A stretch of DNA of 64,000 bases from Physcia stellaris (lineage: Eukaryota > Ascomycota > Lecanoromycetes > Caliciales > Physciaceae). This document shows positions 1-27,800 of this stretch, piece after piece. Made by a program: the position numbers and the translations under genes. The stretch spans positions 124,001-188,000 of the forward strand of contig JABSSW010000053.1 in NCBI GenBank assembly GCA_018902385.1, in the 5' to 3' direction. The stretch's first letter is position 1. Every line of letters starts with the position of its first letter. The notes below the pieces were generated by a model. The model did not search any database. It had not been told where the DNA came from and saw nothing but the letters and a program-made list of their open reading frames with translations.

Positions 1-1193
1 TTCACCTGCTTCCGAATCGAAACCTCCTACGCCTCCTCGATCGGTCACCTCGTCACCTCCCTCGTCACCGAAACTCTCACCTCTCGAGATCCCTACACCA
101 GAAATTGTATGCGAGCGTTCAGAGAGCATATCACCTACCTCGTCGGTTGCAACACCAAAGAAACCGATATCTTGGGCAGAAATAGCCTCACGGCCAGTCG
201 TTGCACCGAAGCCCTCTCGTCTCCCGATTGCGACACCCAAATCGGTGTGCAAACCGTTGGAGAATGCAAGCATTGCTTGCCCGCCTACTCCGCCTCGAGC
301 ACCTACACCATCGAGGCCCTATCTCACTGTGGACGACCTGTTCCGCATGTTCGCTGGGAAGCCGAGTCCATTTGGCCTGCAGCGGCACCAAATGCGCTCG
401 TTTTCTCCGCGCGGCCCTGGCAAATGCAGTCCCGCAAGCAAATGTGGCCCCGTACAAAGCCGCATTACGTCATACTTTCATGCGGTGGCCTTACCTGCTT
501 CTAAATTGGCCAAATTCGAAGCATTTCCAGCAGCACACGCCTCGGTGAAACAGTCGGCCCGCACGTCACCTTCCTCGTTTCGCCCGACTCCTCGATTTTC
601 TTCTTCGGTGCGCCCATCTCTCTCGGCATTCTCTCGCCTTCCTCCTGTTTGCAGGCACTGCCAAGGGCGTTCTGCCACCTATCGGCCTACTGGTTGGGCC
701 ATGCCAAATGCCTCAAGAGTTGGGAACAATGAGATACCCATGGGGCAGCGCTATTGGAGTTTCGCTCCTCCCCGCCCTACTTTGGGGGAGTATTGACCCT
801 CCTACCTCGGGGGAGTCAGCATGTTGTTTGTTTGCTTTGCCCGCCCACCTCCCCTTATTAACCGTTGATCGGCCTGGGGGGACTAAATGTTGTTGTTTTA
901 ATGGATTCGATGTCCAGCCCCTCCCGCCCTGTGGCCTGGGGGAGCTTTACAAGTTGTTGTATGCTTTGTTTATTTGTTTATTGTTTCACGAATATGGTAG
1001 GGACTTACCTTTGTTGTGGCTTCGTCTTGATCTAACACGACTAATCTCGCCTCTATTCCCTACTACCCTTTGAGGCTTTAGTCGCCCGATAAATACGAGG
1101 GGGAGAGAGTGACAGTACAGCCCGTCAGTGCAGTCTCGGAGGAGCGTACTGACGTACTGTACGAACAGTTGTTAAGGAGGACGAACAGACTAG

Positions 1194-1264
1194 ATAGTAC
1201 GACTTCGGGGGAGCGTACTATACAGTCAGGAGTCACATAGTACCGCTTCGGGGGAGCGTACTAT
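1194..1264 (+). repeat. Tandem palindromic 28-bp units
   Basis: Two near-identical 28-bp units lie at 1194-1221 and 1237-1264. Each has 7-bp inverted arms (ATAGTAC and GTACTAT) around a CTTCGGGGGAGC core. They sit in the untranslated part of the retroelement relic and could be a duplicated hairpin or a purine-tract module. Confidence 0.6.
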
Positions 1265-2047
1265 GGAGTCATTACATACTCGGCCTTGCAGAGCAGGAAC
1301 TCGATCAAGAAGGACAAGAACTCGATCAAGGACTGGAGATATCTGACCTTTTCGCATACTAATCGACCTGGTTCTCTGGCAGGTCTTAGTCAGGTCAGAA
1401 AAGCTCGATTCTGCACCCTTTGCATCGGTGTATGCCCGCAATGCATGCCGCGCATTCGATGCATTACCTTCCTTATCGATTTCCCGACCATCTGGCATAC
1501 CTTATGGACTTCCTACAGCCAAATTGCATAGGTATCGGTCCATTGATGTCGCAAGAAGTACCTGAGAACCCTGAGATCCACAATGATGCTACCAAGATCA
1601 TGGTGTGACCTGCACTCTCGTCAATATCGCACTACTCAGGCAAAAGGTACTTGCTCCATGGTGTACCTTCCACCCAATTCTAGGTACCAGATCCCACATC
1701 GATGCCTCACCTCATGGAGAAACCCAGAACGCCTTCAGTCACTCGGTCGCACGTCTTACAAATCGACCTTACGTCATATCTGAAGCGCATGGACCTCGAT
1801 TCGTTCGTTTCTGCAGTCTTCGCATCGGTGTATGTCCTAGCCCTACAGGACCTACGTCATTGGGGGAGCTTGCTCGGAAGCCCCAGGCAACACACCGCTG
1901 GGGAGCTCTAGGATACGCATCGCTGGGGAGCCGCATCGCTGGGGAGCATCATGACTCGTCGCTCTGGGGAGCTTGCACGGAAGCTCCAGGCCAGGCTGGG
2001 CTCGTTAGGATACAGGGCAGGAGGCACAAGCGGTTGCTGTGGGGGAG

Positions 2048-2250
2048 TGTTGGAAATACAGCCTCCGCAGGTGTGCTCGGCAGGTGCTGCAGTCAGGGTC
2101 CATTGGTATAGACCGGCCAATCGGGACTAGCGCCTTGGCACTCGCACACTTCTTGTGCTCCCACCTGCATGTATCTTACAAGAATAACGAGATTCAGAGC
2201 AATAGAATGGTAGTCATCCATGATTCTTTCAATACGAAACGAATAACGTT
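2048..2250 (+). repeat. LTR-like end of the relic
   Basis: The sequence begins TGTTGGAAATAC immediately after a GGGGGAG polypurine tract and ends near CGAAACGAATAACG, just where the AT-rich block starts. TGTTRGAAATA starts after a purine tract are usual for fungal and plant Copia LTRs. I could not find the matching partner LTR in the window, so it is either solo or its partner is too altered to see. Confidence 0.45.
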
Positions 2251-3129
2251 TTCTTGATTTCGCATATTAAATTGATTGCATTGATCGAAAAACAAAATTT
2301 CGTAACGAATTTCAAAATGTCATAAATGCGAATATGCTCGTATAATTTCTCGTTGAAATTGAAGTTTTGTTTGCAAAATTTGCAAATTATTCGAACGTTT
2401 GTAATTTCAAAACTAATGAAATTTCGATCGATTTTGATACAACATCGAGTGTATTTAATTGAAAATTCGAACTTTTTGAAGACGTCGTACAAACGCTTCT
2501 GAAAACGTTTTCGTTAAAATTTTATCGAAACGTTTCAACGAAATGAATTCAGATTGAATTTTAAATCATTCGAATGTCAAATCACATAAACATTTCGACA
2601 ATAAATTCAACAAATCTGATTTGCGATATTGATGTTGACATTGTTAAAAATTCTGTAAAAAGTTCGCGATTTCGTCATACAATTCAAATTTTGATTCGTG
2701 ACATGATGTTGAATCGAAAATATCAATATTTTGAAATTTTGATGTTGACTTAACGACTTTTATCGTTTTCAATTCAATTCGTTTTGTGACTTTTCGAACT
2801 TTGCGTTTTGTTAACTTTTGAATTTTTGTTTTCGATTGCGAAAAAAAGCAATCGTTAAAACAATATTGAAGATATGAAAAAGTCGAAATGCGATCGCTTC
2901 TTGAATCATTCAAACGTCGAATCGTTGAAACAATTGAATAAAAATTTGAAAAAATTGATTTTTCGATATCGATACAAAGATTGACAATGTTGAAAATTTC
3001 GCAAAAAGTTCGCGACTTCGTTGTATTGTTTAATCTTTGAATCAAAATGTATTATATTCGAATCGAAAAAATCGATATCTTGAAGCAAATTGATCGAAAA
3101 TTTTGAAAATATTGAAATCATCGTCAAGA

Positions 3130-3830
3130 CAGAAAAGAAAAATTCATTTTATTAATGAAATAAATGCAAACGTGTAAAATTTTCGAACAAAAAAAATGAT
3201 TGCGATAGATTGTTGAAAAAAAATACGTGAAAATTGTTTGATCGAATATTCAATTCATTCTCGAAATAAAAAAAAAAAACGTCGATTTGCTAAATAATTA
3301 AATGTGATTTCGAAAAATTTTCAAACACAATGAATGAATTCAATATCGAATATTAATGAAAAATTTCGCTAAAAAATTCTTATCGTTTTTGATGTAATGA
3401 TATTGAATTCAACTCAAAAACGAAAAAAACGAAATTTTTGCAAATGAAACAAATAAATTTTCACAATGTTTTCGAAAAAGAAAAATGATATCAATATCGA
3501 ATTCTTGTCAAAGTATTGAACAAAAATATGAAAAATCTGAAAAACTAATTTGAAATCTGAATTCGAAATATTATCAATTTCATCACAAACGATGAAAATT
3601 CAAATCAATTTGCTAAACAAACAGATGTAAATTTTGAAAATTTTCAAAAATCAAAAATGATTTCAATGTTGATTGCAATATTAAATACTGATAAAAATTT
3701 GAATGATTTTCTGATTCGATATTGAGTTTATCATCGAAACAGAAAAAAAAGATCGTCTTAATATAATTAATAAATATGTGTTCGAGTCGATTCTCGAACG
3801 AAAAAAATATTTCGAATATTGATGATCAAA
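3130..3830. repeat. Degenerate tandem array of about 150-bp units
   Basis: Similar segments recur at about 3141, 3280, 3429, 3602 and 3752. Each has an AAATAA...AAATGTxAA...TTTTC core followed by an AAAATGATxxCAATxTxGA segment. Spacing is 139-173 bp. The units lie inside the AT-rich retroelement relic and would be about 50-codon modules on its minus strand. Divergence between copies is high. Confidence 0.45.
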
Positions 3831-6800
3831 AATCTGATTCTTGATTCAATGACGAAATTTCTGATTCGATTCTTGTTCAAATATTTCTTGTATGATGTTT
3901 TCTTGATGATTTAAATTTGATTTGATAATTTTTTGAATTTCAAACACGAATGTTTCGTCAAAAATGATAAATGAAAAAATTTATTTGTGAATCGAAACTA
4001 TCGCGTAAATTCGTTTGTTTTGAACGTTTTTTAAAACACAACGACGAATCTATTATGTTTCGTTTTGCACATTCACAACTAGTTCACGTTGTTAATGTTC
4101 AATTGTTTTCGTTGAATGATCAAAATCGATACGAATTTATTATGTTTCGTTATCGTCAATTGACTTTATAAACAAAAAGTTTTGTTTATTTGATGTTCGC
4201 GTATCTTATAACGAACATAACGTGAATGATTTCGATATAATGTGAAATACTATGCAAAGATATAATATTATTACATAATTACACGAAAATATCGAAAAAA
4301 AAAACAAATACAAAGAATCTGACAAAACATATGTAAAAAATTTAATCATAAACGAAATTCGACTTTGTCATTCGATGTGATAAAATAAAAATATTAATTT
4401 TAATGATTGATCAAATATTGATTTCAAATGTTGAAATCGATGCACGTTCGTCACACGACGATGAGTTTTTCGTCGATGAAAATATCGATTTTCATTCAAT
4501 TTTTGATGCATTTCAACGTTTCGATAATTTTAAAAATCAATGAAATTCGTTTTGTCGTTATCATGTGTTTCAACGAAAAAAATATTCGTTTTGATTCGAA
4601 AAACATCGATGAAATATTGAAAATATTCAAAATCATGCGAATCAATGTTGATAATTTCGTTCTTTGATTTAATCATCAATCAATAATGTTCAAATTTTTA
4701 TTGAAATTAAACGATTCAATGAAATATTGTTTCAATTCGTTTGTATGTTTTTGTTCGTGATTTCGATACATTCAAAAATCAAATTTGACGATTTTTTTTC
4801 TGAAAATTGATTGATTGTTGTAACAAAAAAAATGCGATTGTACGTGTTTCACAATTTCGTAATTTTGATTTTTGTTTCAACAATTGACAATGAATTTCAA
4901 TGCGTTTCGAAATAATTTCATTTTTGTGCAAAATTCAAAATCACGACGACGATATAAACGAAAATTTTTTTGATGTTTTTGTTTCAATATTTTTGCAAAT
5001 TTTTGAATTCAACATCAAAAAATAATTGCATGAAATCATTGTCGATGAAATCATACGTCGCATTTTCGTAATGAGCAAACAAATAATTCAACGTCGATAA
5101 ATAATCGTTGATTATAACAAAACGATTTTTCATTTTTTTCGTGATTTTTTGAAATGATTTCAAGAAATTTTTGATGTTTCGAAAAAGAAATCATTCGAAT
5201 GAATTGATATTATCGTTTTGAATATTTTCGTTCATAATGTATAATTGCAATGTCTTTTTGATTTTTTCGATAAATCAATTTATCATGATAAATCACGAAT
5301 TTCATTTCATTTTCATGTTTCGCAGAAACATGACATTGTCGTTGAATTGTTTGAATTTTTGTATGCGTTGATTATTTTTCATGATGTGTGTATTGACGTT
5401 GTGCAATTTTTTTTGAAATTCGAAACGTTTGTAATGTTGTAAATTTTCGTCGTTGAAAATTACATCGAATATTTGTGTTTGTTTGTCGAAATGTTGATCA
5501 AATAAAAAACTTTGAATTGATAAATTAATAATATGATTCAAACAACGAAATCGATGTTCAACGAAATCGTATTTGAAAAAATCGTTGTTTCAAAAATTTT
5601 GCGCAATAATTTTCATTATTGTATCGTTAAAATCAACGTTATTCATGACGAAATATTTCAATTTGTTGCGAAATTCGAAATTTCGAATCGTATGCAAAAT
5701 AATGATTGTCATGTTTGCATCGTTATGAACATTTTGAATTTTTTTCAAATTCAACAACAAAATACGAGAAATTTTCGCATCGTCAATGAAATGAATCACG
5801 AAATTTAGAAAATTCAAATGATTTGACGAAAATCAAACATCGCATGTAATATGTATGAAAATGATCGCAACGTTCAATTTATGACGTAATCGTTTTTTGT
5901 TTTTTTCGTACAATATCATGATTTTCGTTTGAATAATATTGTTCGAAACAAAAAATAAAACGTTCGCAAATTTGTTGATGTAATGTAAAAACATTCGAAA
6001 ATTTCTATTGCGCATTTGTTTGAAAAAAACGTCAATCAATACGATTCATCGAAAATACAAATACAAAAAATGTTGTTTATTCAACGAAACGATTATGTGT
6101 TTTGCAATTTGACGATTTTTCAATTTTTTTTTCATTGCAAATTGACGATTAAAAACGAAAACAAAATCGTCATTTTAAAAAATTAAACGAATTTCGTCAC
6201 GATTTCGAAAATCGATATGATGTTTTAATCGCAAATGTATTTTGAATTTCATGATATTGTCGAATTTGACGTATTTGATGATGCAATATTTGCATTTTGC
6301 GAAAAAAATTTTTGTTTTCGAAACAACGTGAAATGATGATAAATATTCGACGTAATTTTGCGAAAAAATTTGTCAATCGAAATTCGTGTTTTGCGATTCG
6401 AAATTGTTTGTGATATTGTTGTATCGATTGCAAAATCGATTGCAAATTCGATTGATTTTTCGTCGAATTCGTTGAATAGTGATTCGTCGATTTTCGAAAT
6501 CGTTTTTTGAATTTGAATATTCAATGCAATTTTCACGACAATTTTCACGATCGAATTCGTTCGTGTTCGCGCTCGTTTTGAAATTCGTTTCGAATATTCA
6601 AACGACACAAATTGAAAAATTATAAATCGTCGTTCGTTGATTCGACGCGTTGTAAACGTTGAAAATTTGTCGAATTGATTATTCGACATGTTGATTTTAT
6701 CGACATTTCGATTTTTGCGAAATTGAAATTTGAATTTGACGATCGTCGTTTTGATAAAAAAATTATTCGATGCAACAATTAACATAATAATAACATCAAA

Positions 6801-7893
6801 TAATTCGAATCGATTTGATTGAAACATCGTTGATATATAACGTGAATTGTTGATATGTGAAAAATTGAATTGAATTGAAATAAAATAACAAAAACAAAAT
6901 TTTTGAAAATTGATGTTTGAATTTTGCTCGAAAATTCGTTTATTCGAAAAAAATACAAAAATTTGAAATTGAAATTTATCAAAAATATCAAAAATCAACG
7001 TAATTTATTGCAACATCATTAACAAAAAATCTGATAATGCACGTTAATTGATGTTTTGTAATTTATCATTCAAATTTCGATGAAATATTCGAAATTTCAA
7101 AATTGAAACATTCGAACATTTCGTAATATTGAACAATATAATAATCATTTGCATCACACATATTACTGATACGCATTAAAATTATCATTTTTTTTTTTTG
7201 TATTATATTAAATAATATGATGCGACAAGTAGATTCGAAAGTTTTTTTAAAAAAAACTTTGTCGAGAAATCTTAGAATTAGAGCCAAATCTGATAAGATT
7301 GCAAAATTCGAAGCGAACACAAAGTTGACAACGACGTAATTTTCGAAACTTCAAAACTATTGCGATAATGAATCGATTTTTGTTATTTTTACGACGTTGA
7401 AATGCGCTCATTTCGCTTTACAATTTTGACTAAATAAGTGAAAATCATAAATGATTGTTGATTGAAATGCAAAATGCGAAACAACTGTATAACGCATTAC
7501 GTTCGATAATGAGACGTCAAATAAATTTTGAATTAATCAAATCAAAAAAGAGTGTCGCAAATCAACTTGAAAATCTGAATGTCAAACATGAAATTTGAAT
7601 TGCAAAAATTGCAGTCATTTGATCACATTTTCGAAACATATCATGATTTTCGATTGAATATAACGCAATAAGATATCAAAATGTATTTGTTTTGATATTG
7701 ATCATTTTGAATATTATGTACATATGTTGATTTCAGAATTCTGACTGATCTGATCATTTGCGACGAAGATATCGAGAATATGTCATACAAATCGGATCTG
7801 TTTTTTCAGCGAAATCTTTTGACTTATTAAGATTTCAAAAGTTCGAATTTGCAATTTTTGCATCGATGTATGTTTGCGAAAATGATTCGCGCA

Positions 7894-7985
7894 TGAAAAC
7901 ATTCGATGAAACATTCGATGAAACATTTGCTGAAACATTTGATGAAACATTTGATAAAACATTTGATAAAACATTTGATGAAAAT
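7894..7985. repeat. 12-bp minisatellite, about 8 copies
   Basis: The unit ACATTYGATGAA repeats about eight times without interruption and in frame (Thr-Phe-Asp-Glu on the plus strand). It lies inside the AT-rich relic. One copy has GCTGAA instead of GATGAA. Confidence 0.8.
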
Positions 7986-9559
7986 CGATTCGATCTGAAA
8001 AAAACAATTCGTGAAAATTATATCGATCATGACATACTCGAATAAAACTTTCTTTTTTGTTTTCATTTATGTTCGTTTGTTTCGATTTTCAATTCAATCA
8101 ACTCGTTTCATTGCATTTTTCGTCGTCGTCAAAACGATTGTCAGAATCGATCGATTCGTCGATCATATATGTATCGTTCGACTCATCAAAATCATTCGAC
8201 TCGTTTGATCAAATTGAATGTTTTTTTTTTTTTTTTGTTGTTTTCGCATTTATTTTTTCGTTCGTTTTTTTCGTTCGCTTGATATTTTTTGCAAATTGAA
8301 TTTCTTCGCGAATTGAAATATTGTGTGAAAAATCAAATTTTCATTTTTTTCGTTGCATTGCATTGCAAGCGTATTTCGTCAACGATTTAAAAAGAAAACG
8401 ATTGTTATGTTTGATTATTTTCTTTCTCATATGCAAGCGAATTTCGTTCTCATCGTTGATTCGAACAGCGATAAAAAAAAAAAAATAATACTTTTTGAAT
8501 TTGCAATGAGCATAATCATTTCATACAGAACGTTTCGTTCAAGATTGAAAACGAAAATGCTTTTGAAACAAAACTTCTTCAGACAATTCTAATCGATATT
8601 CGAAATTCGAAAAAAGTTTTTCATTGATTCGTATGATTTCAAATCGTTTCAATCGTCAAAAGTATTGAAAAATTTGATTTTTTCAAGTTTTTTGATTTTT
8701 TTGCAACAATTTTTGCTGTGATTTCACTTGAAAACGCGTATGTGTTTTAATTTTTGAAACATCGAATGCAACGTCAAACATGAAACGTGCTTTAATCATT
8801 GAATTTTGAATAATAGCTGATTGTGAAATCGAATAGATTTCAGATTTTTGTTTATTCAACATCATTTCATTTCGGTCATTGATTGTGTAGTGAGACTTTC
8901 GAAACTCGACGAATGTTTGAGATGTAACAGTCATTGAATGACATTCGTAAAAAGCGCTGATTTCGATCGATGCAACAGCAGAAATAAAAATAAAAATAGA
9001 AATAAAAATAAGTTTCTGAAAAGCATTTCGTTTCTCTCGCTTTTTGACATGACGATTTGCTGCATCACGCGAACGCGTCGTAATAAGAAGATTTAAATTC
9101 AACGTCAACTGCATGATTTGTTGAAATTCGTTGAAATTCTCGTGATTGAATTGATATGAAATTGAAGTTGATATTGTTGTTGATGTTTGAATCATCGAAT
9201 TTCGAATTCATCAATTTGTATGCGATCAAAACTTCGCATTTCAATAACTCGATGCGTTCACGTCAAAATTTAACAAACGTTACAGTATTGAATTTTTCTC
9301 ATTAAACTTTACAACTTTGATTACATAAACAAAAATCATATCAAGTTCTTGATTGATGTGCAATGTGCGAAAAAGTTGCATCAAAATTTTGATGTTCTTC
9401 GTCAAGATTGATTTAATTCAATAAGAAAATAAACTTTTTGTAAAGAAAACGATAGATATTTTTTTATAAATTGTGTTCTATAAATGATTCAAATTATACG
9501 CATTATTCGAATTCGAAATCGTGATACATCGATAATACAAATAATTCGATGTATCATTG

Positions 9560-10290
9560 AACGTTTTAATTTATGAAATTAAACGTATCAAGATTTCAAA
9601 AAAAGAAAAAAAGCAAATTAATTCAAATTTTAGAAAATCGTTGAAATTCGAATTCATTCTTCATGACAAATCAACGTTGTCAAACGATATTTACGAAAAA
9701 ATCAAATTTTCGAATTTATTCAGTCACGCCTGGCTGCTATGAATGATAAAAAATGGAGAATCAAGATGGGCGAGCATTCTATTGAGGTTCGAGATCAGTT
9801 TGACCGAATCGTCAAAATTGTCCTCATAGCCAAAGATTTTGTTTCTTCCGTCGTTAACATGAATTCTGTTCACGTTGATTTATCATGAACAAAAATCTAT
9901 GTATTATTTTTCTTGTTCATCAATGATATTAAACAACGTTTCACGATTATAAATGAATTTGAAAACATTGCGAAATTCATTCGAAAATATTTTCAAATTG
10001 AAAATTTATATCTGAATGATCAATTCTTCAAACTGATTGAAAAATTACGATTGATCGTGATCAAACTTTACAAAATAATTTTGAAATTTGAAACAAAAAT
10101 CGTTTGTCAATTTTCACGAAATGTTGTTCATCAAACATTGAAAAATGTTTTCATTGTCGACGATTGAAACGAAATCTTGAAAAATATCAAACAGAATGAA
10201 ATTCATTGCGAAATATTGATACGAATAATCGACACAGAAAATCGAAAAATACGAACGAAAACATTGAAAAATCTCATCGTTCAACAAAAT
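9560..10290 (+). pseudogene. 5' half of a split NLR (STAND) gene: NACHT N-terminal domain
   Basis: This is the N-terminal part of a fungal NWD/NACHT receptor. The frame that reads RLAAMNDKKWRIKMGE, then VRDQFDRIVK and AKDFVSS near 9720-9880, matches the conserved N-terminal domain found before the nucleotide-binding domain in fungal NLRs, and continues in the same frame to 10290 through VCQFSRN and TENRK. Two in-frame stops (near 9884 and 10165) are both TGA at places where the family has Trp. Most of the segment is as AT-rich as the flanking transposons, but about 9720-9880 is a GC-normal island. The frame stops exactly where the inserted element begins at 10291 and resumes in phase at 15067. 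I do not see a convincing start codon; the true 5' end may be lost in the retroelement relic to the left. Confidence 0.75.
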
Positions 10291-10410
10291 CGTTCAAACT
10301 AAACGTGAATATTAATGCAAAAATAACGAAATGAAAAAAACTTGAAAAATTGATTTTTTAATTAAATAGAAAATCAATGTTTCATTTTTTTCATTTTTCA
10401 ATTTTTTTTG
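10291..10410 (+). repeat. Terminal repeat A1 of the Ngaro-like element
   Basis: Starts CGTTCAAACTAAACGTGAA and matches A2 (start 14698) through the AATTAAAT and AAAATCAATGTTT segments for about 120 bp. No B segment follows it, which separates this element from an ordinary LTR retrotransposon. Confidence 0.75.
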
Positions 10411-13400
10411 GCAAATTATTCGCAAAAATCAATTGTAAAAATCATTATATCAATTTTTGATATTGCATATTTCAATTTTTCGATTTTCGCATATTTTTTG
10501 CTGTAATATTTCGTTCAATTTAATTAAAATTCGATTTCGTTGAATTTTTCGTCGTCGCAATAATGTTCGTCGACATCAAATTCATTTTTATTTTTGACAA
10601 AAATCATGATATCGTCGTCAAAAAAAATGATAACGAAATATTCAAATTCAAATTCAAATCGTTTACAATTTTCAAACGTGTCATTTTCGACGTAAAAAAT
10701 CGTAATCGAATTGAAAAATTTGTTTTATGTTTTCGTTTTGATTTAACGCGTTTATTTCGAAATATTTTTCGTAACGTTCGTTTTCGAATTTTTTTTTTTC
10801 GTTTGATTATTTCGAAAATCAAATTGAAAACGAAAACGAAAACGATTTCAACGTCATGATTATCGATTTCGACGACGACGACAACGACGTATTCGACAAC
10901 GACGAATTTTAAATTCGACGATCACGCGCACGCGAAAAATTTTCAAATAACGAAAATTTCGTTCAAAAAAAAAGAATTTTCGTCGAAAAATAATTTTTCA
11001 AAAAAAAATAAAAAAATATCAAAAAAAGTTGAATGAATTCATTTTTATTCAACGTACGTTGTTTTCGTTGTTTTTTTTTTACATTTTTCAAATTCGTATT
11101 TCGTCGTTTCGTTCGTTGTTCAAACGATCGAAATTCGTACGAATTTTTTACACATGATTCATGATTCGAAATATTTCAAAATGAAACGAATATTTGTCAA
11201 CGTGTCGTTTCGATTTTTGCAAAACGTTTATCATTGTCGTTTGAATGTCAAAAAATTTTTCAAATTCATTTTTTTTTGAATTGCATTCGAAATCGTTGTC
11301 GATACGCGTTCAAAATTTTTCAAAAACATTTTTTTTTGTTGATGACGATGAAAATGTATTGCAACGTTGTTTTCGAATTCATTCATTCGAATATTCAATA
11401 TCAATTGAATTTCGTCATGAACGCATATCGCATTCGTATCATGAAAACGTATTTTTACAAAACGTGATCGTCGATCGTAACATAACACGAAAAAAATTTG
11501 ATTCGAATCATTCGCATCGATCAAAATGTTTTCGTCAATTGATTGATCAAAATCGATTTTATCGAATGAAAATTCAAAAATATAATCGTTGTTGAATCAA
11601 ACAAAAAAACGTTTAAATATCAATCAATTTTCGTTTTTCGTAAATTCAAAAATAAACGTATTACAATTCGTATCGACGTTTGTGCTGCGTTCAACAACAA
11701 TATTCGATACGAAAAAAATTGCAAATTCAAATATATTTGTACAAAATGTCAACAAAAAAATCACGACAAATTCGAATGCATCAACAAAATCACAAAATGA
11801 TTAATCGTTTTTTTTTTTTTCGTTCATTTTTTTTTTTTCATTTTTTTTTTTTCGAATTATTCATTTCGTATGATCATGTCGATTTCGATCGAATAATCGT
11901 CGAAAAATTTTTTGTATGACGTCGTTTTCGAAAACGTTTTTAATTTCGATATCAAAATGTCATTGAAAACAACGAAATGAAATTTTCGATTAAAAAATCA
12001 TTTTGATCGAAATTTCGTTAACAAATTGTTTGACATTATTAAGCGAAACGCGAACATCGAATATATCGAAAATAAAAAATTTCGCATTTTCAACAATCAC
12101 AATTCGATCAACGAGATTTTCGATATATTCATTGTCGATTTCGTCAAACAAATGAATGTTCATCGATTGTTTAAATTGCGTGACGTTTTTTTTATTCATT
12201 ACGTTTGCTCGTCGTTGAATTTGATTTCGAAACACGACGACGATTGAAAACGTATTCATGATTTATCATATTTCAAAAACGATTCAATCAATGAAAACAT
12301 TATATTCGACGCAAAAATTTTGAAATACGTCACGTTCGATGAAATCATTGCAATATTCATATTTCAAAAACGAAATGTTGTAATGTTCAAGAAAAATTTC
12401 GCAAACGCGTTCAAACACATTTTTGTGATCATATTGAATCGTTGATTATTCGATTTTTGTTGAAACGACGAATTTTACATGAAATTATTTTTATTTTTCG
12501 ATTTTCGAATCGTTTCATTTTTTTTTGATTTATTTGTTAAAACGTTGCATTGAATTTTCGTTAAAATAAATCATTTTCGTATCGTTTTTCATTATTTAAA
12601 CGATTTTTTTATCATCATGAAATTTCACATCGATTTTGAATTATATAAAATCATTTGACGAGATATTTGCAACAAATTCGATTTCGAAACAAACGCGAAA
12701 AAAAAAAAATTTGACACAAAATTCGAATTTTTGAACATCGAATTCGATAACGAAATCATGAAAATTCGATTTTTTTCAATTAAATTGACGAGAACAATGA
12801 AATTCGTCAACGAAATTTTTATCGAAAATTTTTCACACATCGTCAAATCGATTTTCTCGTGAATTTTCTATTTTTTTGTGCAAAAGTCGTGATTTTTGAA
12901 CGATTTTTTTTCATTTTTTTGTATCGAATTCGCGATCATTTTCGAAACGTCAATAAATCATGCAAATTTAACGAAATCATGCGAACAAATTTACGTTGAT
13001 GACAAACGTTTTTATCACGATAAAACGATATTAAAATGTTGCGAAAAATATTTTTACAATCGTCAAATCATATTTGAACAAACGTTTCGAATAATTGAAA
13101 CATAAACGATTTTTGATTTCGTGTTTTTAACGATGAATCATTCGAAAATTTCAATTGACGTTATTCAACGCGTTTTCGCAATCGACAATTGAATATTCAA
13201 ATCAAAAAAATGCGAACGATGTTACATGCGTTACGTCAATGATTATTTCATTTCGAAAATAACAAAATCGTCATTCATTGCGACAATCAGATCGTCTGTG
13301 CGAAACTCGACAAAAACACGATGCGTGATTTAACAATGACATTTTTTCGTGACGTAATCATGTTATTCGTTTTTCATGATATTTTGATGAAAATGATGTG

Positions 13401-14575
13401 ATTAAATTCGAAATTTAATCATTTCGTTGATTTGTTTTCACGTAATGAACACGATACGATTGTTGACGAATATTTTCAATTGCAAATTCATCATGATCAA
13501 TTTTAAAATTCGATTTTTCGTTTATCGTTGACGCATCGAATTATTAATATGTTCAAATTTCATTGAATAAAACGATCGTTCGTTTCTTGTGATGAAATTT
13601 GACTTCGAACATTCGAAAAACTCACGATTCTGTCGTCAATTCATACGTGAAATTTTGCGTTTTTGACAAATTTCAAACGTTTTCATTCACATGATTTTGC
13701 ATTGTCGAATGAATAAACAATTTGAAATTTCGAAAATTCAAATCGAAAATTATCAAAACATATATCATTGATTTACGTTTCGTTTGCGTCGATCGAAAAT
13801 ATTTTGATTTCAACGTTTTCAATGAATTTTTGTTACAACGCGAAATCAACGACATTAAACGTATGTATAACGAAAACGAAAAACGTGAACGCAAAACGAT
13901 TATTCGTGATATTTTGTTAAAAATTTTGCAATTTTTCGATATTCGCATCAAAAAAAATGTTACATTGCACGTCGCATTTTGTTTGATTTTTGCAAACTTT
14001 TTGCGTATAAATGAATTTACATGATCAAATATTGATCGCACATTTAATTTCGACAATTGATTCGTTATTCGTTTTTCGATGATTTTTTTTGACGATCATT
14101 TCGTTTTAACGTTTTCTGTTTCGAAAATCGACTCATTTCGCAAAAAAATCTCGATATTTATTGCAATCACGAACGATGTTGTTTGTGCGATAATTTCATT
14201 ACGTCATTTGTTTTTGCATTTCTCGATTTCGAAATACGTTTTCTTGTTTCAAATCGAAAAATCAAAAATTTTCAATGTTCAATTCGTCATCAAGATATTA
14301 CGTAAAACGATCGAGAATTTAAAACACGATGACAATTATTCGAAACATTTTTTTCGACGTGATGCGACAATCGAAATTCGCAATGCAAACGTTTCGAACG
14401 ATTTGATTCAACTTTTAAAAAAATGAAAATTCGAAACGTTTTTGTTGTATATCGAAATCAACAAAAAATACGTTTTTCGAACATCGCGTTATCATCAAAA
14501 CGATTGAATTGTTTTTTTTTTCGTTTTGTTTAAACGACGACGTCGTTTTTCGACGTGTTTTGAAATTGTGAAAAA

Positions 14576-14697
14576 TAATCAAATTTTGAAAATTGTTTTG
14601 TTGAATTGTTTCGTTCATGCAAAAAATTTACAAATCGATCAAATTCAAAACATCAAAATTTTTGTACATAATAATGAAAAAATACGAAACATTAATT
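14576..14697 (+). repeat. Internal terminal-repeat segment B1
   Basis: Aligns end to end with B2 (14944-15066) with one single-base length difference. All substitutions are C-to-T or G-to-A relative to B2. It abuts A2 directly. Confidence 0.85.
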
Positions 14698-15066
14698 CGT
14701 TCAGACTAAACGTGAATGCTAATGCAAAAATAACGAAATGAAAAAATTTAAAAAAATTGATCTTTTAATTAAATAAAAAATCAATGTTTATTTTTTTCAT
14801 TTTTCATCTTTTTTTTTTTTTTTTCGCTCACTTATTTTTTGATTTTTTTCGACGTTTTCATTTTTTTATGAAACTTTGTTTGTCATTTTTATTCGAAATT
14901 TTTCTGCTTTCGCTTCTTAATCCAATCGCAAAAACAGAAAAAGTAATCAAACTCTGAAAGTTGTTCTGTTGAACTGTTTCGCTCATGCAGGAGATCTACA
15001 GGCCGACCAGACTCAAAACATCAAGATTTTTGTACATAGCAATGAAGGAAGTACGAAGCATTAGCT
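14698..15066 (+). repeat. A2-B2 terminal unit of the Ngaro-like element
   Basis: A complete A-to-B unit of 369 bp. The A part (14698-14830) is hypermutated, while the B part (14944-15066) is GC-normal. Solo copies of the whole A-B unit occur at 21561-21946 and 39201-39536, which shows the unit is the natural repeat of the family. Confidence 0.8.
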
Positions 15067-17901
15067 CGTCGTGTCACCAATCTGTTACAGGCGTCCCGGA
15101 GGGAAGATGAGATATTTAAGCAACAATTACTGGGAGAGTTTCAACAAATACGGAATGACGATCAAGAGAGACATGTAATTCAAGAAGAATCTAAAGTTCT
15201 CGAATGTCTTCGTACTAATGACTATGAGCTTGATAAAGAAAGTAATCCTGATAGGATACCTGGTACCTGCGAATGGTTTCTCCAGCACTCGAAGTATAAG
15301 CAGTGGCGAGAGGCAACCGTGTCGAGTTGGTTGTGGGTCACGGCCGATCCAGGCTGTGGCAAATCAGTTCTGACTCGCTTTCTTATCAATAGCTATAAGA
15401 ATCCTAACGCTGAATCCCCATCAACTTGCTATTTCTTCTTCAAAGATAATAGCGAGGCCAACCGAAGTGCAGTGAACGCTCTAGCATCCATGTTACATCA
15501 GTTGTTTTCCCAGAACCATAAGCTTATCAAGCATGCATTACCCTTCTACCGGCAGAATGGAAGTACGCTAAGCCAACTTTTTGAGTCTTTGTGGAACATC
15601 TTTGAAATTGCCATTACTGATCCTGCAGCCGGAGAGACTCTCATTTTCCTCGACGCTCTGGACGAATGTGAGGAAAGGACTAGAACAGCGCTAGTCCGTA
15701 AATTTGCTTCCTTGTTTTCCAGTGACCAGCACAAAGGTCTTCTTAAGCTATTAATTACGAGTCGACCCAGCACACAGCTTGGAGATGAGATCTGGCGTGG
15801 GAAGATAGATCCTGCTAGCATCAATTTGACGGGTGAGAACGAGGTAGAGATGGAGGCTATCAGAAGTGAAATCGACTTGGTAATTCGAGAAAAGATTAAG
15901 CACTTCGGCGAACTTAGGAAGTATCGTGGGATTGAAGATAGCGCACATGAAATTCTCTTAGATCATCTACTCCAGGTCGATAATCGTACCTATCTCTGGG
16001 TTACCCTGGTCCTCCCAGAACTCGAACGAATTGCTGGATCATCGAAAAAGAAGCTGCTTGAAGCTATTCGGACCGTTCCTCAAACTGTAAATGATGCATA
16101 CGAGAGAATCCTGTCCCGCAGCACTGATTCGACGCTTGCCACAAAGTTGCTGCAATTAGTGCTCGGTGCGGTACGCCCACTGACGCTAAATGAGATGAAT
16201 GTTGCGCTCTCTATTACCGAAGACAGCCGTTGTCTGGCTGATCTTGACTTGGAGTCATCAAGCTCTTTCCGGACCACAGTACGCGATCTCTGCGGTTTAT
16301 TTGTGAATATCAGAGATTCAAGAATTTATCTCTTACATCAGACAGCGAAAGAATTCCTTTTACAGCGTAGAGATCATTTTGGGCGATGTAACCTGTCCGT
16401 TCGTTGGCAACAGTCGATGGATGCGGCGATCTGTAATATTACTATTGCAAAGATTTGCCTTTCCTTTTTAAGCTTCTCAGATTTCGAGACGGGCCCAAGC
16501 CCTGACCTTGAAGCTGGTCTTGTGGAGTATCTTGGAAGATATCCCTTTCTTGAATACGCTTCAATTAATTGGCTTGAACATGTAAGGTCATTTACTGACT
16601 TGGAGTATGACGAAAATGAAGGGGCCATTGTGAGTATCTGCAATCCGAGCTCGAGAGGATGTCACATGTGGCTTCAGATTCACTATAATGCAACAAATAA
16701 GACTGCAGTTGATCGTCTGCCAAAAGGTTTCAATGAGTATATCATCGCGGCTTATTCCGGCTTAAACAGAATGTTCAGTTCGCTTGACCGAATGGGTATC
16801 AGACCTGATGTTACCGACCATCACTCTGGAAGCGCTCTTTGGTGGGCTTTGGAGAAAGGGCACGAAGACACGGCCTGCAAATTACTGATGCACCATCTAT
16901 TTCGCCCAAAGCTTGATGCCTTGACAGCACTTCAGTTTTCCTGCATACTTGGCCGTGTCAGCGTTGTCGAATGTCTTCTTAAAAGTTTTGAGGTTAATGG
17001 GCACGATAAAGCTAACGATGGCTGGACTGCCGTTCAGCGTACTGCGGCTTATGGAACCCCGCGCATACTCGATGTACTACTGGATTACGATATAGACAAG
17101 GCGCCGTCTAACACCAAGGAGATAGCGCTTTCCCATGCTGTAATTTATAACAATTTCGAAACGGCACAGTACCTGATCAAGCAAGACGTAAACCTTGAGG
17201 CAAGATCAGCGAACGGGACTACTGTTTTGTATAGCAGTGTAGCCAATGAAAACGTAGGTATGGCCCAGCTATTATTGCTGGCTGGCGCAAAGCCAGATAA
17301 TCTAAGCAGCAATCCACGCAACAAAAAAGATCATAACTATGGAGAAACTGCGCTATATAGGGCGGCCTCAATCTACAACGTAGAACTAGTCTCGCTACTG
17401 CTTGAACATGCTGCCGATGTAGAAGTCAAGAACGGAGGTTCCGAGACAGCTATATATCGCGCCGTCGGCCCGCACTCGAGTAATCCATTTGGTCTTCCTG
17501 TCGACGAGACGTGCCAAGCAGCGATTTTGGAGATACTCCTGGAAAGAGGTGCCCGCGTGGATTGCCAGACAGCAACAGGGGATACTCCAATTCGAAGGGC
17601 ACTCAGGGCTGGTAGTGAACCCGCTAAGAGCATCATGGAAGACTTCGCAAAGAAGTCGGGCCTTGATATTGCACCCATCGTCAACTCTCCGAAGAAAGTG
17701 TCTACTATAACAGTGCTTTGCAGACGGCACTTTGCAATGATTGAAGAAAGTAACCTCATAAATGCAGAGACATTTAGAGACAAAATACTTGAATCCGTGG
17801 AGGATGATCATGGCCCAAGCCTGAACGTTCCTCGAGACGAGTTATTCAGGGGTATTCGGATGTACGACGGCCTAGTCAGAAGACTATTGCATGCGACGTA
17901 A
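15067..17901 (+). pseudogene. 3' part of the split NLR gene: NACHT plus ankyrin repeats
   Basis: The frame runs unbroken from the edge of the inserted element (15067) to a stop at 17901, 944 codons. It has no ATG before the nucleotide-binding site, as expected for a gene cut from its 5' half. After a linker (CLRTNDYELDKE, GTCEWFLQHSKYKQWRE) comes a P-loop, DPGCGKS (near 15350), a Walker B-type segment LIFLDALDEC (about 15645-15675) and an LLITSRPS sensor motif. The middle part is helical. From about 16840 the C-terminus has six to eight ankyrin repeats (for example GETALYRAA and LLLEHAADVEVKN). Such proteins are signal-transducing NTPases of fungal allorecognition or defence. It is flanked on both sides by hypermutated transposons yet shows no hypermutation. 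Without the insertion the two halves would be in phase. A truncated product from a downstream start is possible but would lack the P-loop. Confidence 0.9.
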
Positions 17902-18094
17902 GTTTGTATAGTCAATCAGAATGCTCCTCCCTTGACACTGCCTCATGTATTGATTGACCTTTACTGGAACCAAGAGCTGGAATATATCACTCACTGAAGA
18001 CGTGCCAGTCGTTCAGTAACAGAGATTCTCGATTATATTTCGAAGACCTAGTAGATGGCATTTTGATTCTTTTCAGAACAGAGCCCCGATGGAA

Positions 18095-18102
18095 TATAAG
18101 TA
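18095..18102. repeat. Target-site duplication TATAAGTA, left copy
   Basis: The same 8 bases are found at 20869-20876 directly outside the right inverted repeat of the Mutator-like element. A perfect duplication indicates that the flanks have not been rearranged since insertion. Confidence 0.9.
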
Positions 18103-18161
18103 GGTAACCGGTATTCACACCTACCACTTCGGTAGACACACCTGCAGATTCGGTATACACA
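18103..18161 (+). repeat. Left terminal inverted repeat of the MULE
   Basis: Begins GGTAACCGGTATTCACAC and ends CGGTATACACA. Its reverse complement matches 20810-20868 at 55 of 59 positions. Confidence 0.95.
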
Positions 18162-18351
18162 TTTTCAGGGCTTTAATTTTCGAATAATGCTCGGATTTTT
18201 CACCCGAAAGTTTGCAAAGTTCATATTCGTCATATCATGTTGCAAAGATTTCGGATTCGAACGATTCAGCATTCATTGAAAGCTGTCTTATTTACAAGAA
18301 ATGAAAATCATTTAATATGATGAAACGATCATTTTTTTTAAATTTATTAAT

Positions 18352-20760
18352 TTATTCAATCATTTTCTTTTTTTTTGTCATCATGTTTGTCGTCGTCAAA
18401 TTTCTCGTTATTGTTTTCGAGATTTTCGAAGTCGTCGTCGTTTTTCTCGTTCTTTTCGTTATCGCTAAATATTTCGATAAAATGATCGATGACTTTGTTT
18501 TGATCGCAATCGTATTTTTTTCGTTTTTTGCGATTGTCATTTTCACGATTTTCGCGACTTTTTTTTCTTTTTCTCGAGATTTTCGTTCGATCGTAGTTTT
18601 TTCTTTACGTGTAATCATTTTGACTCGTTTGTAACGAGTTTTCATTGTTTGTTTCACGATTTCGAAATTCGAAACGTCACGTTTCGTAAATTTGACGATT
18701 TTTTTTTCAATTTTTGTCATTGTATCTTTTTTGTTTTGCGATTCACGAAATTTTTTTTTTGATTTCATTTTTTTCGATTCGTTGACGTTTAAAAAATTAT
18801 TTATTTCAAATATCGAATTTGAATCGAAAAAAAACGCGAACGACGAAATGCGATTGTTGCGATCATGAAAAATATCGTCGAATTCAAAAAAATCGTCATC
18901 GAACATTTGTTCAATGTGCATCGATTGATAAAATGACATTGACGTTGTGTTTGAAACGACAAAAACATCAATAAAATCGAAAATGAAATCGTCGAAAAAA
19001 AAATCAAAAACGAAACGAATTTTTTGAATTTTCAATGAAAATGTACGTTTTTCAAAAATAATTTTTTTGACGTTTGAATGATGATTTGAATGATGTGAAC
19101 ACACGAAAAATTCATGATTTTGATAAATGCATGATTGCACGATTGCAATGAATGTTTTTTTGATTGTTTTTCGATTTTTTTGACGAATTTATATTGTTTT
19201 TGTATTTTTTGCAATGCGTAAAATGAAATTCGATTTATTAAATTGCGCATTAAATCACGTGATAAATTCATTGCAATTTTGTTTTTGATTTGATTCAATC
19301 GATGTTCGTAATTTTTCATTTGATTCGAAATAAAAATTTTTAAACGATTTACAACGATCATGAAATCATTCGTAAAAAATTTCAACATGTGTTTCAATAC
19401 GCGATGATCGCTCTTCACTCGCGAAATGATAAAAGTATTGAAATGAAATATTTCGTTGATTTTGTATTTGCAAAATCGATTGCGTCATGATGTCATTCAG
19501 AAATTTTTCACATATTGTACGTTTTTGATGTGTTCGTTTCGAAATTTACGAACGAATTTTTTTGTATGTCGCATTGTATTCGATTCTGATGTGAGCGTAA
19601 ACGACTCGATATCAATAAATTAAAAATTTCTTTCAGTTTTTTTGCGTGCGAAAGAACGATTTGCAGTTTTTGAGCACGTTCTTGTTGATATGTCAGATGC
19701 ATAGAAGATTGAAAACGTCAGAATATTGAGTTTTGAAAACGTTCATCAAAACGAAATCTCTGTCAATAACAACAACAGCGAAATTCTTCAAATCGAGTGA
19801 TTTGTATAGAAGTTTGATTTGCTCAATGACTCAAACGAAATTTTTTTTTTTTTCTCAATAAAAGCGAAGCCGATATAGAAGCTCGTATTCAATGAGATGT
19901 GATTCATGACAACAAACATCGACATGTCGTATTTATTGATTTTGTACGTGCAATTCATGACGAAAATTTCGAAATTTTTGCACAAGATTTTCTTGATATG
20001 TTTGTTGACGAAAAACAATTTCTTAATTCGTTTGATTTCGTTTTCGAACAACATTTTCGTGAATTAATTATTTCGATTCAAAATCATTAACAATGTTTGC
20101 GTAATATTGTATTTTTTAATCGTAATTGTTTGATTTTCTTTTTCGCATTGTAAATATTTTGAAATTGAAACAAAATGTTGAAATTTTGCTTGCGAAATTT
20201 GATTCAAATTTCGTAAAAAGTAAAATTTTCGATCGATTAATTTCAACATACAAACATTTGCGAACACATATTTGAGTCGATATCAATCGCGATGTTTCGA
20301 AACATTTTTTCGATCAATTTATTGTGACGATGCATCGAATGCGTAGATGTTTTGATGTTTGAATGATTATGTGTTGCGATTTTGACAATTATCTTTCATC
20401 TTTCATTGTCAGATAACGATTTCAGAATCATCTTTCAAAAACAGACAGTTTTGATAGTGTTGACGTTTTTGATTTTTTTGTTTTCGCGTTTCTTGTATGT
20501 GATGCTTCGATCGCAAATCAGTTCGATGTAATTGATTTATTTCGTGATTTTGATTTTTTTGAAACGTCGTTTGAAAATGTCGAATTCGTGCTTTTTGCGT
20601 CGCGTTGAAGCACATTCACAACGATTTCATAAAAGTCAAATATGTAAAAATCATCATAATCGAAATCAGAATTAACGTCGTCGATCGATTCAAAAATCGA
20701 AAAATTGTTTTCGATCATGACGAGATAAATGAGTGAATAGAATTCTCGATGTTTTGACAA
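18352..20760 (-). pseudogene. MULE transposase remnant
   Basis: Read from 20760 downward. An acidic N-terminal region starts at MSKHREFYSL (20760). The frame at 19788-20054 has the MULE core pattern (M-x-CTYKINKY, then VVMNHISLNTSFYIGFAF). The first catalytic Asp normally found before CTYK is Asn here (codon at 19953-19955), which a G-to-A change explains. The frame at 19032-19418 ends with a SWIM-type zinc finger (CNHAF...CVHII). A Lys/Thr-rich tail follows to 18352. The parts are in different frames and separated by stops, so no functional protein can be made. Family length is usually 600-800 residues, which fits the space. Confidence 0.85.
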
Positions 20761-20809
20761 ATTTCTCGAAGGTAAACAATAGGGTTATTTAGAATTAAGA
20801 CTTTGAAGG

Positions 20810-20868
20810 TGTGTATACCGAACTTGCAGGTGTGTCTACCGAAGTGGTAGATGTGAATACCGATTACC
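20810..20868 (-). repeat. Right terminal inverted repeat of the MULE
   Basis: Inverted partner of 18103-18161, followed at once by the right copy of TATAAGTA (20869-20876). Confidence 0.95.
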
Positions 20869-20945
20869 TATAAGTAAACTGTCTGAGCTAACATCCGGTC
20901 GTTAGAATTTGCCGAAAAATCTCCATACTATCCCTTTGGGGTCCA

Positions 20946-26400: not shown

Positions 26401-27800
26401 ATGTCCTCCCAAACCCAGTCTCCCTCCCCCTCGCCTCTGGCTTCGGTATCCCTCCCCACTTCCTCCTCCACTGTCAATGTATCCATCCTCAATACAACAG
26501 CACGCATCGACCGCCTTCCAACCTCATACCACTATCCTCCTTCCCACATTCCAGCACCCTTCACCCACCTCAACTGTCCCTGTTTCGCCTTCTTAATCGA
26601 GCATCCGCCCTCGGGCCAAAGAGTGCTTTTTGATCTCGGCATGCGCAAAGACTGGCAGAACCTCGCTCCGAGCATCGTCAGCATGATCAAGACCGTGGGC
26701 GCGGACATCAGGGTGGAGAAAGATGTATCTGAGATCCTAGAAGCGGGCGGGATCGACCTGAAAGACATCGATGGTATCATCTGGAGGTGCGTTTTCACTT
26801 TTGCCTGCCCTATCCACTTCTCTTTCCGCAAGATCATGGATTGGTAGAATTGTAAAGCCTGTTCAGAAATTTCTCTCTCTTCTTCTTTCGCATCTCAGAT
26901 CAAGAAAAAAACGTCATGAAAACCCCTACTCACGAAACAACGCACACTAAAACCACCCTCCAACCCAGCCACCACCACTGCGACCACACCGGCTCGCCCA
27001 CACTCTTCCCTCTCTCCACGAAACTCTACGTCGGCCCCGGTTTCCAAGCCGCCTTCACCCCAGGCCACCCCACCAACGCCTCCTCCCCAATCCTAGATTC
27101 CGACTACACGGGCCGCGAACTCCACGAGATCACTTTCTCTGCTTCCAGCCCCGTGGTAGCCGGATTCCGCGCGTATGACTTTTTCGGCGATGGGAGTTTC
27201 TACCTGCTCGACGCGCCGGGGCATTCCGAGGCGCATATGTGTGGACTGGCGAGGACGACTGCTGCTACTATAAACCGAGAAGAGCGGGAAGAGCAGGGGG
27301 ATGGGCAAAGAATGGGAGAGAGCTACATCCTCCTAGGCGCCGACACCGCACACCACCCCGCCGAGCTCCGCCCCTCCCCTTCCCTCCCTTTGCCCCCCTC
27401 CAACCCCCTCTCCCGCGTGCATCGCCTCGCTCCCTCCCCTCAAGCATTCATATCCCCCTTCCTGGTCTGTAAAGACGAAGTCACGCACAACGTTGCTGAG
27501 ACCGCGGAGACGATCAGGAAGGTGCAGGCGCTGGATGCGAGAGAGGATGTCCTGGTCGTGATGGCGCATGACCAGAGCTTGGTGGATGTTGTGCGGTTTT
27601 GGCCCGAGAGCGCGAACGCGTGGAGGAGGGAGGGGTGGAAGGGACGGGGCTGTGGGGGTGGTTGCGGGATTTTGGAGGGGAGGGGGTCTGAGTATGGAGG
27701 GGAAAGGGGAGGGGATCGTGGTGATATTCTCTGGGGGTCATTTGAGGGGAAAGGTATGTTGGAAATATTCTGGTTGCCGAGTTGGAAAAGGATGAGGTAG
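26401..27800 (+). CDS. Metallo-beta-lactamase-fold hydrolase (AHL-lactonase-like)
   Basis: Two exons, 26401-26786 and 26969-27800, encode 405 residues. The zinc-binding HxHxDH motif (HHHCDH, residues 130-135) is split by the intron: the exons join inside the Ser codon just before it. Other family marks are LIEHPPSGQRVLFDLGMRKD before it, and a DAPGHSEAHM segment and a LGADTAHH segment after it, which supply the later metal ligands. This matches the lactonase branch of the MBL fold, whose fungal members have varied and mostly unknown substrates. The intron of 182 nt is long for this window. The C-terminal third carries Pro- and Gly-rich low-complexity insertions. An upstream in-frame ATG at 26308 exists; I prefer 26401 because the N-terminus then matches the usual start. 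Confidence 0.85.

Follow-up and report, generated by a model that had tools for sequence, protein, structure and literature searches.

The window examined here is a 64,000-nucleotide stretch of the Physcia stellaris (Ascomycota; Lecanoromycetes; Physciaceae) genome, taken from contig JABSSW010000053.1 (C53:124001-188000) of an assembly comprising 43,974,083 bases on 147 contigs (GCA_018902385.1). Between 2300 and 14940 it contains an AT-rich tract of repeats that bears the marks of repeat-induced point mutation (RIP), with a target rule in which cytosine is lost before C and T (CpC and CpT, together CpY) rather than before A. A second island like this tract is found at ~18.25-20.75 kb. The features of the locus are given below; C numbers denote contigs and L numbers individual loci fetched from the genome.

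1..2234, + strand: family A repeat copy, un-mutated, ~53% GC, adjoining the AT-rich tract; 69 matches (40 of 301 candidates scored)
2240..4455, no strand assigned: hypermutated repeat, recognized by composition and by genome copies 70-87% identical
4455..7195, no strand assigned: hypermutated low-copy repeat, with copies on C34 and, in pieces, C46 (92-94%)
7225..9483, no strand assigned: hypermutated copy of the family B repeat; principal test case, un-mutated copies serving as reference
9484..10299, no strand assigned: near-single-copy linker between two repeats, 816 bp, mutated except at ~9720-9850
10300..14940, no strand assigned: family D repeat in which hypermutation is close to saturation, with matches elsewhere (query to 15000)
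15319..17901, + strand: open frame encoding NPHP3_N and ankyrin domains, single-copy and un-mutated, lying between the islands
18101..20871, no strand assigned: family C element with terminal inverted repeats at ~18101-18178 and 20793-20870

A preliminary description of this DNA had claimed that 2300-14940 is depleted of CpC, CpT and their complements while CpA, CpG and TpG remain common, and that 11041-11640 lacks CC, CT, AG and GG altogether. Both statements hold on recounting. The 600 bases contain 0 of each of these four dinucleotides beside 40 CA, 48 CG and 33 TG; base composition predicts a combined 84.7 for the missing four, and the minimum of 10,000 base shuffles was 59. Over 2300-14940 the observed/expected ratios are CC 0.03, GG 0.03, CT 0.26 and AG 0.19, with CA 1.23, TG 1.29, CG 3.36 and TA 0.38, compared to CC 0.95, GG 0.97, CT 1.06, AG 1.06, CA 1.10, TG 1.08, CG 0.89 and TA 0.73 at 22000-64000. 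The tract is non-uniform, 7-10 kb still carrying 21-26 CT and 22-25 AG per kb.

The comparison of AT-rich with GC-normal DNA that the same description had proposed was made on 56 sources, namely the window and 55 of the 59 fetched loci (329,698 bases, divided into 500-bp segments). L003, L005, L025 and L045 were dropped for overlap, the overlapping L053 and L054 were retained, and the sample is biased to repeats because most loci came from repeat searches. Segments below 30% GC (n = 209) contain, per 1000 dinucleotides, 0.7 CC, 0.7 GG, 10.5 CT and 9.5 AG, whereas those above 42% GC (n = 334) contain 58.2, 57.6, 65.2 and 65.4, respectively; the low- and high-GC values for the other dinucleotides are 60.1 vs 68.0 for CA, 54.8 vs 55.4 for CG and 61.7 vs 45.6 for TA. 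Among these sampled loci the depletion of CpY recurs widely, the 240 segments below 33% GC being spread over 44 of the 56 sources. The sum of CC and GG is at most 10 in 223 of the 240, and that of CA and TG at least 40 in 232. The 8 segments in which CA and TG sum to less have zero CC or GG, so that by these thresholds no segment lost CpA while retaining CpC. In the flanks of L027 (C92) and in parts of L018 and L034, segments of 11-20% GC have lowered CA and TG as well, with CC and GG at zero, and CpA may be the context that is reached last.

Family B allows the mutations to be counted directly. Its search reported 64 matches (40 of 300 candidates scored), of which 20 copies were fetched: 14 have 44-45% GC and normal CC, CT, AG and GG, and 6 have 22-30% GC. 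Seven of the 14 un-mutated copies served as trial references, each mutated copy being counted against the one that gave the fewest other differences. Changes per available site were as follows.

L025 (window copy): CpC 194/203, CpT 151/255, CpA 8/306, CpG 1/228; 354 C-to-T, 11 other changes (2203 sites)
L026: CpC 198/205, CpT 140/259, CpA 8/311, CpG 3/230; 349 C-to-T, 18 others
L027: CpC 205/207, CpT 229/257, CpA 17/311, CpG 6/218; 457 C-to-T, 22 others
L028: CpC 199/200, CpT 237/243, CpA 50/298, CpG 11/215; 497 C-to-T, 12 others (2102 sites)
L030: CpC 165/186, CpT 164/245, CpA 31/291, CpG 29/213; 389 C-to-T, 124 others
L034: CpC 170/182, CpT 183/232, CpA 23/285, CpG 28/213; 404 C-to-T, 116 others

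Other substitutions are few in L025-L028 and many in L030 and L034, so that the first four copies look recently mutated and the last two older. The rank CpC > CpT >> CpA > CpG is found in four of the six mutated copies, while in the older L030 and L034 CpG stands slightly above CpA. In L025-L028 the 5′ base has little effect (NCC 0.96-0.99, NCT 0.66-0.78, NCA 0.04-0.09, NCG 0.01-0.04), as has the base after next (CCN 0.94-1.00, CTN 0.69-0.81, CAN 0.04-0.11, CGN 0.02-0.03); it is the 3′ base that decides which C is a target, the 5′ base being minor. As a preferred target, neither CpA, as in canonical RIP, nor CpG, as in CpG-type hypermutation, fits. CpY had been put forward as the near-exclusive target, and this is true of moderately mutated copies, while in the most mutated and the oldest copies CpA and CpG are changed too, though seldom; L028, the most heavily mutated aligned family B copy, also loses CpA (50/298). 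Among the un-mutated family B copies, which lie on different contigs, L039 has 2, 0 and 0 differences from L036, L040 and L041, indicating a recent burst.

A reference from outside the repeats is provided by a hypermutated ribosomal DNA (rDNA) copy on C41 (L059), which holds 18S, 5.8S and 28S pieces. An Rfam search (39 of 2644 candidates scored) found one 5.8S match, at C41:45899-46052 within this copy; a 5.8S pattern search of the assembly gave no match, and no intact rDNA was seen. The count covered both 5.8S blocks and, of the 28S blocks, three in full and one in part, leaving out 28S block 183-271, which carries an insert, and later blocks. At the 250 most conserved positions (upper case in the consensus), C-to-U changes or their complement affect CpC at 15/19, CpU at 13/27, CpA at 0/32 and CpG at 2/25 sites, with 3 changes of other kinds. 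When lower-case positions, whose ancestral base is less sure, are added, the values are CpC 47/71, CpU 35/55, CpA 5/53 and CpG 13/62. These losses at conserved positions, together with the 14 un-mutated copies among the 20 of family B, exclude original composition as the cause of the gaps: the missing dinucleotides are the result of mutation.

The order of attack is visible in family A, lightly mutated copies of which occur elsewhere in the genome. Pooled and compared with L007, seven such copies have lost CpC at 553/2152 sites (0.257) and CpT at 266/1845 (0.144), with CpA at 110/1938 (0.057) and CpG at 118/1744 (0.068); in 12 other family A copies the values are CpC 0.076, CpT 0.074, CpA 0.045 and CpG 0.067. 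CpC is mutated first and more completely, CpT second, and CpA and CpG are near baseline in light copies. CpA as the main mutated context, which according to the preliminary description would have spoken against its reading, was found neither in the six mutated family B copies nor in the seven pooled family A copies that make up this sample. The symmetry over both strands described earlier gives way in lightly mutated copies to local strand-biased patches, with + strand 0/14 and - strand 24/42 at columns 2000-2199 of L018, 1/25 and 17/37 at columns 2200-2399 of L013, and 12/29 and 0/16 at columns 1800-1999 of L012. Across nine copies, 526 of 832 neighbouring mutations (0.632) lie on the same strand, above every one of 500 permutations (mean 0.576, standard deviation 0.016, maximum 0.623).

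Within the window, the mutated tracts are repeats and single-copy DNA at 15.1-18.05 kb is spared, the linker at 9484-10299 being the exception. A genome match search marks 15100-18050 as single copy, and its composition marks it as un-mutated. The family D repeat extends beyond 15000 while its mutated part ends near 14940; no un-mutated reference was obtained for this family, both of the two copies fetched being mutated. The interior of the window's family C copy is hypermutated and its outer 150-200 bp far less so. Less mutated ends are likewise seen in the first bin of family B copies L025 and L028 (14/27 each); in other copies the ends are not spared (L046; first bin of L027, 24/27). A small un-mutated patch lies at ~9720-9850 amid the mutated linker, which has matches of only 61 and 80 bp elsewhere in the genome; its mutation would reflect either leakage from both flanks, reaching a few hundred bases, or an undetected old repeat. 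In the frame at 15319-17901 a NACHT domain scores just below cut-off; this NLR-like gene is flanked by hypermutated islands. Further along, at 26916-27800, the GC-richest kilobase (60.6%) holds a 294-amino-acid open frame with no Pfam match.

The coding consequences were followed in the open frame of family B, which is 395 amino acids long and has no Pfam match. Its 15 CAA, 8 CAG and 9 TGG codons would by the genetic code all be exposed to CpA-type RIP. In the window copy all nine TGG codons have become TGA, as they have in L026, and stops are gained in no other way; the compared CAA, CAG and CGA codons (32 in the frame) yielded 0 stops. Stops from CAA or CAG number 1 in L027, 3 in L028 and 1 in L034; in L030, as in L034, a TGA stands opposite one TTT and another opposite one TTC. 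In the window copy, 124 codon changes in this frame alter the amino acid and 28 are silent. For 11001-12000 the two usual RIP indices are TpA/ApT 44/126 = 0.35 and (CpA+TpG)/(ApC+GpT) 117/97 = 1.21. Both miss the thresholds quoted in the passage cited (>0.89 and <1.03, respectively; PMC4188875), which would call this kilobase free of RIP.

Comparison with known systems refers here and below to the passages and tables of the papers cited. The massed C-to-T changes in repeats, the few other changes, the strand-biased patches of some lightly mutated copies and the presence of RID- and DIM-2-type genes are all shared with canonical RIP of Neurospora crassa. Unlike here, where CpC leads, CpC comes last in N. 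crassa, whose order is CpA > CpT > CpG > CpC, and also in Trichoderma reesei (PMC5496416). The target rule is thus close to a reversal of the Neurospora/Trichoderma order, and the opposition to canonical RIP proposed in the preliminary description is borne out by CpA losses of 8/306 in the window copy and 0/32 in rDNA, with CpC and CpT leading. In Sclerotinia sclerotiorum CpA and CpG are described as mutated more than CpY, citing Clutterbuck (PMC4188875). CpT occurs alongside CpA and sometimes predominates (PMC4352252, PMC10998396), overshadows CpA in alignments of Neurospora Tad1 (PMC2621366), and CpT/ApG is the dominant form in control genomes (PMC7882544). RIP with a CpT signature (Botrytis, Sclerotinia, Magnaporthe; Anisogramma; Neurospora Tad1) resembles the present case in having CpT as a major context, but in the species tables and passages concerned CpT accompanies CpA, and CpC does not rank first. 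For Monilinia, CpA is described along with double mutations that turn CpC into TpT (PMC8959702). CpG-type hypermutation (Basidiomycota, Tuber; Rhizoctonia solani AG8) is likewise a RIP-like C-to-T change, unlike the present one in its CpG context (PMC4352252, PMC4014442), which is spared here; the text on R. solani AG8 names CpG, while its Table 2 gives a spacing of 214 bp for CpC, 370 for CpG, 422 for CpA and 491 for CpT (PMC4014442). AT-mutated rDNA copies are also recorded as RIP products in other ascomycetes (PMC5555474, PMC7493409). According to a kingdom-wide screen of 2025, a preference for CpA is common to RIP-like defences (PMC12543289). PMC11969663 and PMC7296669 yielded no contexts, and PMC13207899 nothing on RIP. 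The passages of open-licence PubMed Central literature covered contain no CpC-first RIP in repeats, though the Rhizoctonia table lists CpC as the most frequent C/T class.

A PF00145 search of the genome gave four matches in three genes, and the inspection of RID- and DIM-2-type methyltransferases advised in the preliminary description yields one DIM-2-type and two RID-family genes. L002 is of DIM-2 type, matching 9bap_A (listed as a DNA methyltransferase, which we take to be a DIM-2) with E 4e-180. The RID-family genes, L003/L004 with EQT and L001 with EET, both contain PPCQ, have short recognition stretches (~83 and 76 residues by eye) and are identical to each other at 70 of 174 catalytic and 50 of 149 N-terminal residues. 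EQT and EET are hallmark motifs of the Masc1/RID family, and Botrytis cinerea and Pseudogymnoascus destructans are cited as carriers of EET (PMC6709928). For purified RID a review reports no detectable activity (PMC13297926). One Pre-SET gene (C37:394263) is a DIM-5 candidate. A genome search for HP1, a further member of the Neurospora pathway, gave no match, but no control matched either, so that it says nothing on presence.

The mutation pattern is unusual and strongly supported: it is that of a RIP-like process whose dinucleotide rule is close to inverted. The choice of target by the base after C suits a C5-methyltransferase, and the concentration in repeats, the patchiness and the near-saturation beside few other changes argue for RIP with a changed target. 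That a RIP-type methyltransferase process is at work, whichever of the RID- or DIM-2-type enzymes carries it out, is likely, and RIP with a methyltransferase reading the 3′ pyrimidine is the best explanation and a probable one. In such a process repeated DNA would be recognized and then inactivated by massed C-to-T change, a C5-cytosine methyltransferase that reads the 3′ pyrimidine acting on CpC first, on CpT second and on CpA and CpG poorly; it may act during the sexual cycle, as Neurospora RIP does. The first candidate enzyme would be the EET-type RID L001, favoured because Botrytis cinerea has both EET and CpT signatures. RID and not DIM-2 as the enzyme is an evenly balanced proposition, and the EET-type gene in particular is a tentative choice. 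It is a similarly tentative proposal that the RIP rule has been inverted in this lineage, with CpC taken first and near completion and CpA and CpG spared, through the EET-type RID paralogue.

DIM-2 could instead be the mutator, a heterochromatin-linked branch of RIP in which its non-CG preference yields CpY changes. The DIM-2-type gene is present, and a review gives DIM-2 a non-CG, CpT-preferring activity, which also speaks against the EET-type RID (PMC13297926). However, CpC precedes CpT in this genome, an order not expected from a preference for CpT, and we regard this alternative as unlikely, if the most serious of those considered. Slow decay without RIP, in which CpY methylated in the silenced repeats of vegetative cells deaminates over time, would also yield C-to-T changes only, in silenced repeats and in the methylation context; it is improbable in view of near-saturation with few other changes (497 against 12 in L028) and of the patchy, partly one-strand mutations of light copies.

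Both an APOBEC/AID-like deaminase and ultraviolet damage at dipyrimidines give C-to-T changes. Their action is governed by the base 5′ of C, which is minor here (TCA changed at 27/333 and TCG at 13/362 sites), and although the genome was not searched for a deaminase of this kind, either origin is very improbable. No supporting point was found for an origin in base composition or in faulty assembly, and either is scarcely credible given un-mutated copies of the same repeat, changes at conserved rRNA positions and a pattern found on many contigs. Ultraviolet damage, APOBEC, CpG decay and composition were each rejected on the context tables (CpG 1/228 and 2/25).

Several observations weigh against RIP with a methyltransferase reading the 3′ pyrimidine. 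The near-single-copy linker is also mutated, and the near-identical un-mutated family B copies imply that their recent burst was not reached by the process. Same-strand clustering is real yet modest, and columns 0-599 of L022 are mutated on both strands. Phialocephala has four Dnmt1-family genes and yet shows CpA loss, according to the passage concerned, so extra genes do not imply a CpY target; this also speaks against the EET-type RID as the enzyme.

If the rule is inverted, new stops would arise nearly only by TGG to TGA, and transposons would be disabled mainly through amino-acid change. A near-inversion of this kind would show that the RIP target rule can evolve, and the two types of RID-family gene in one genome would offer a route to finding what recognizes the nucleotide that follows the target C.

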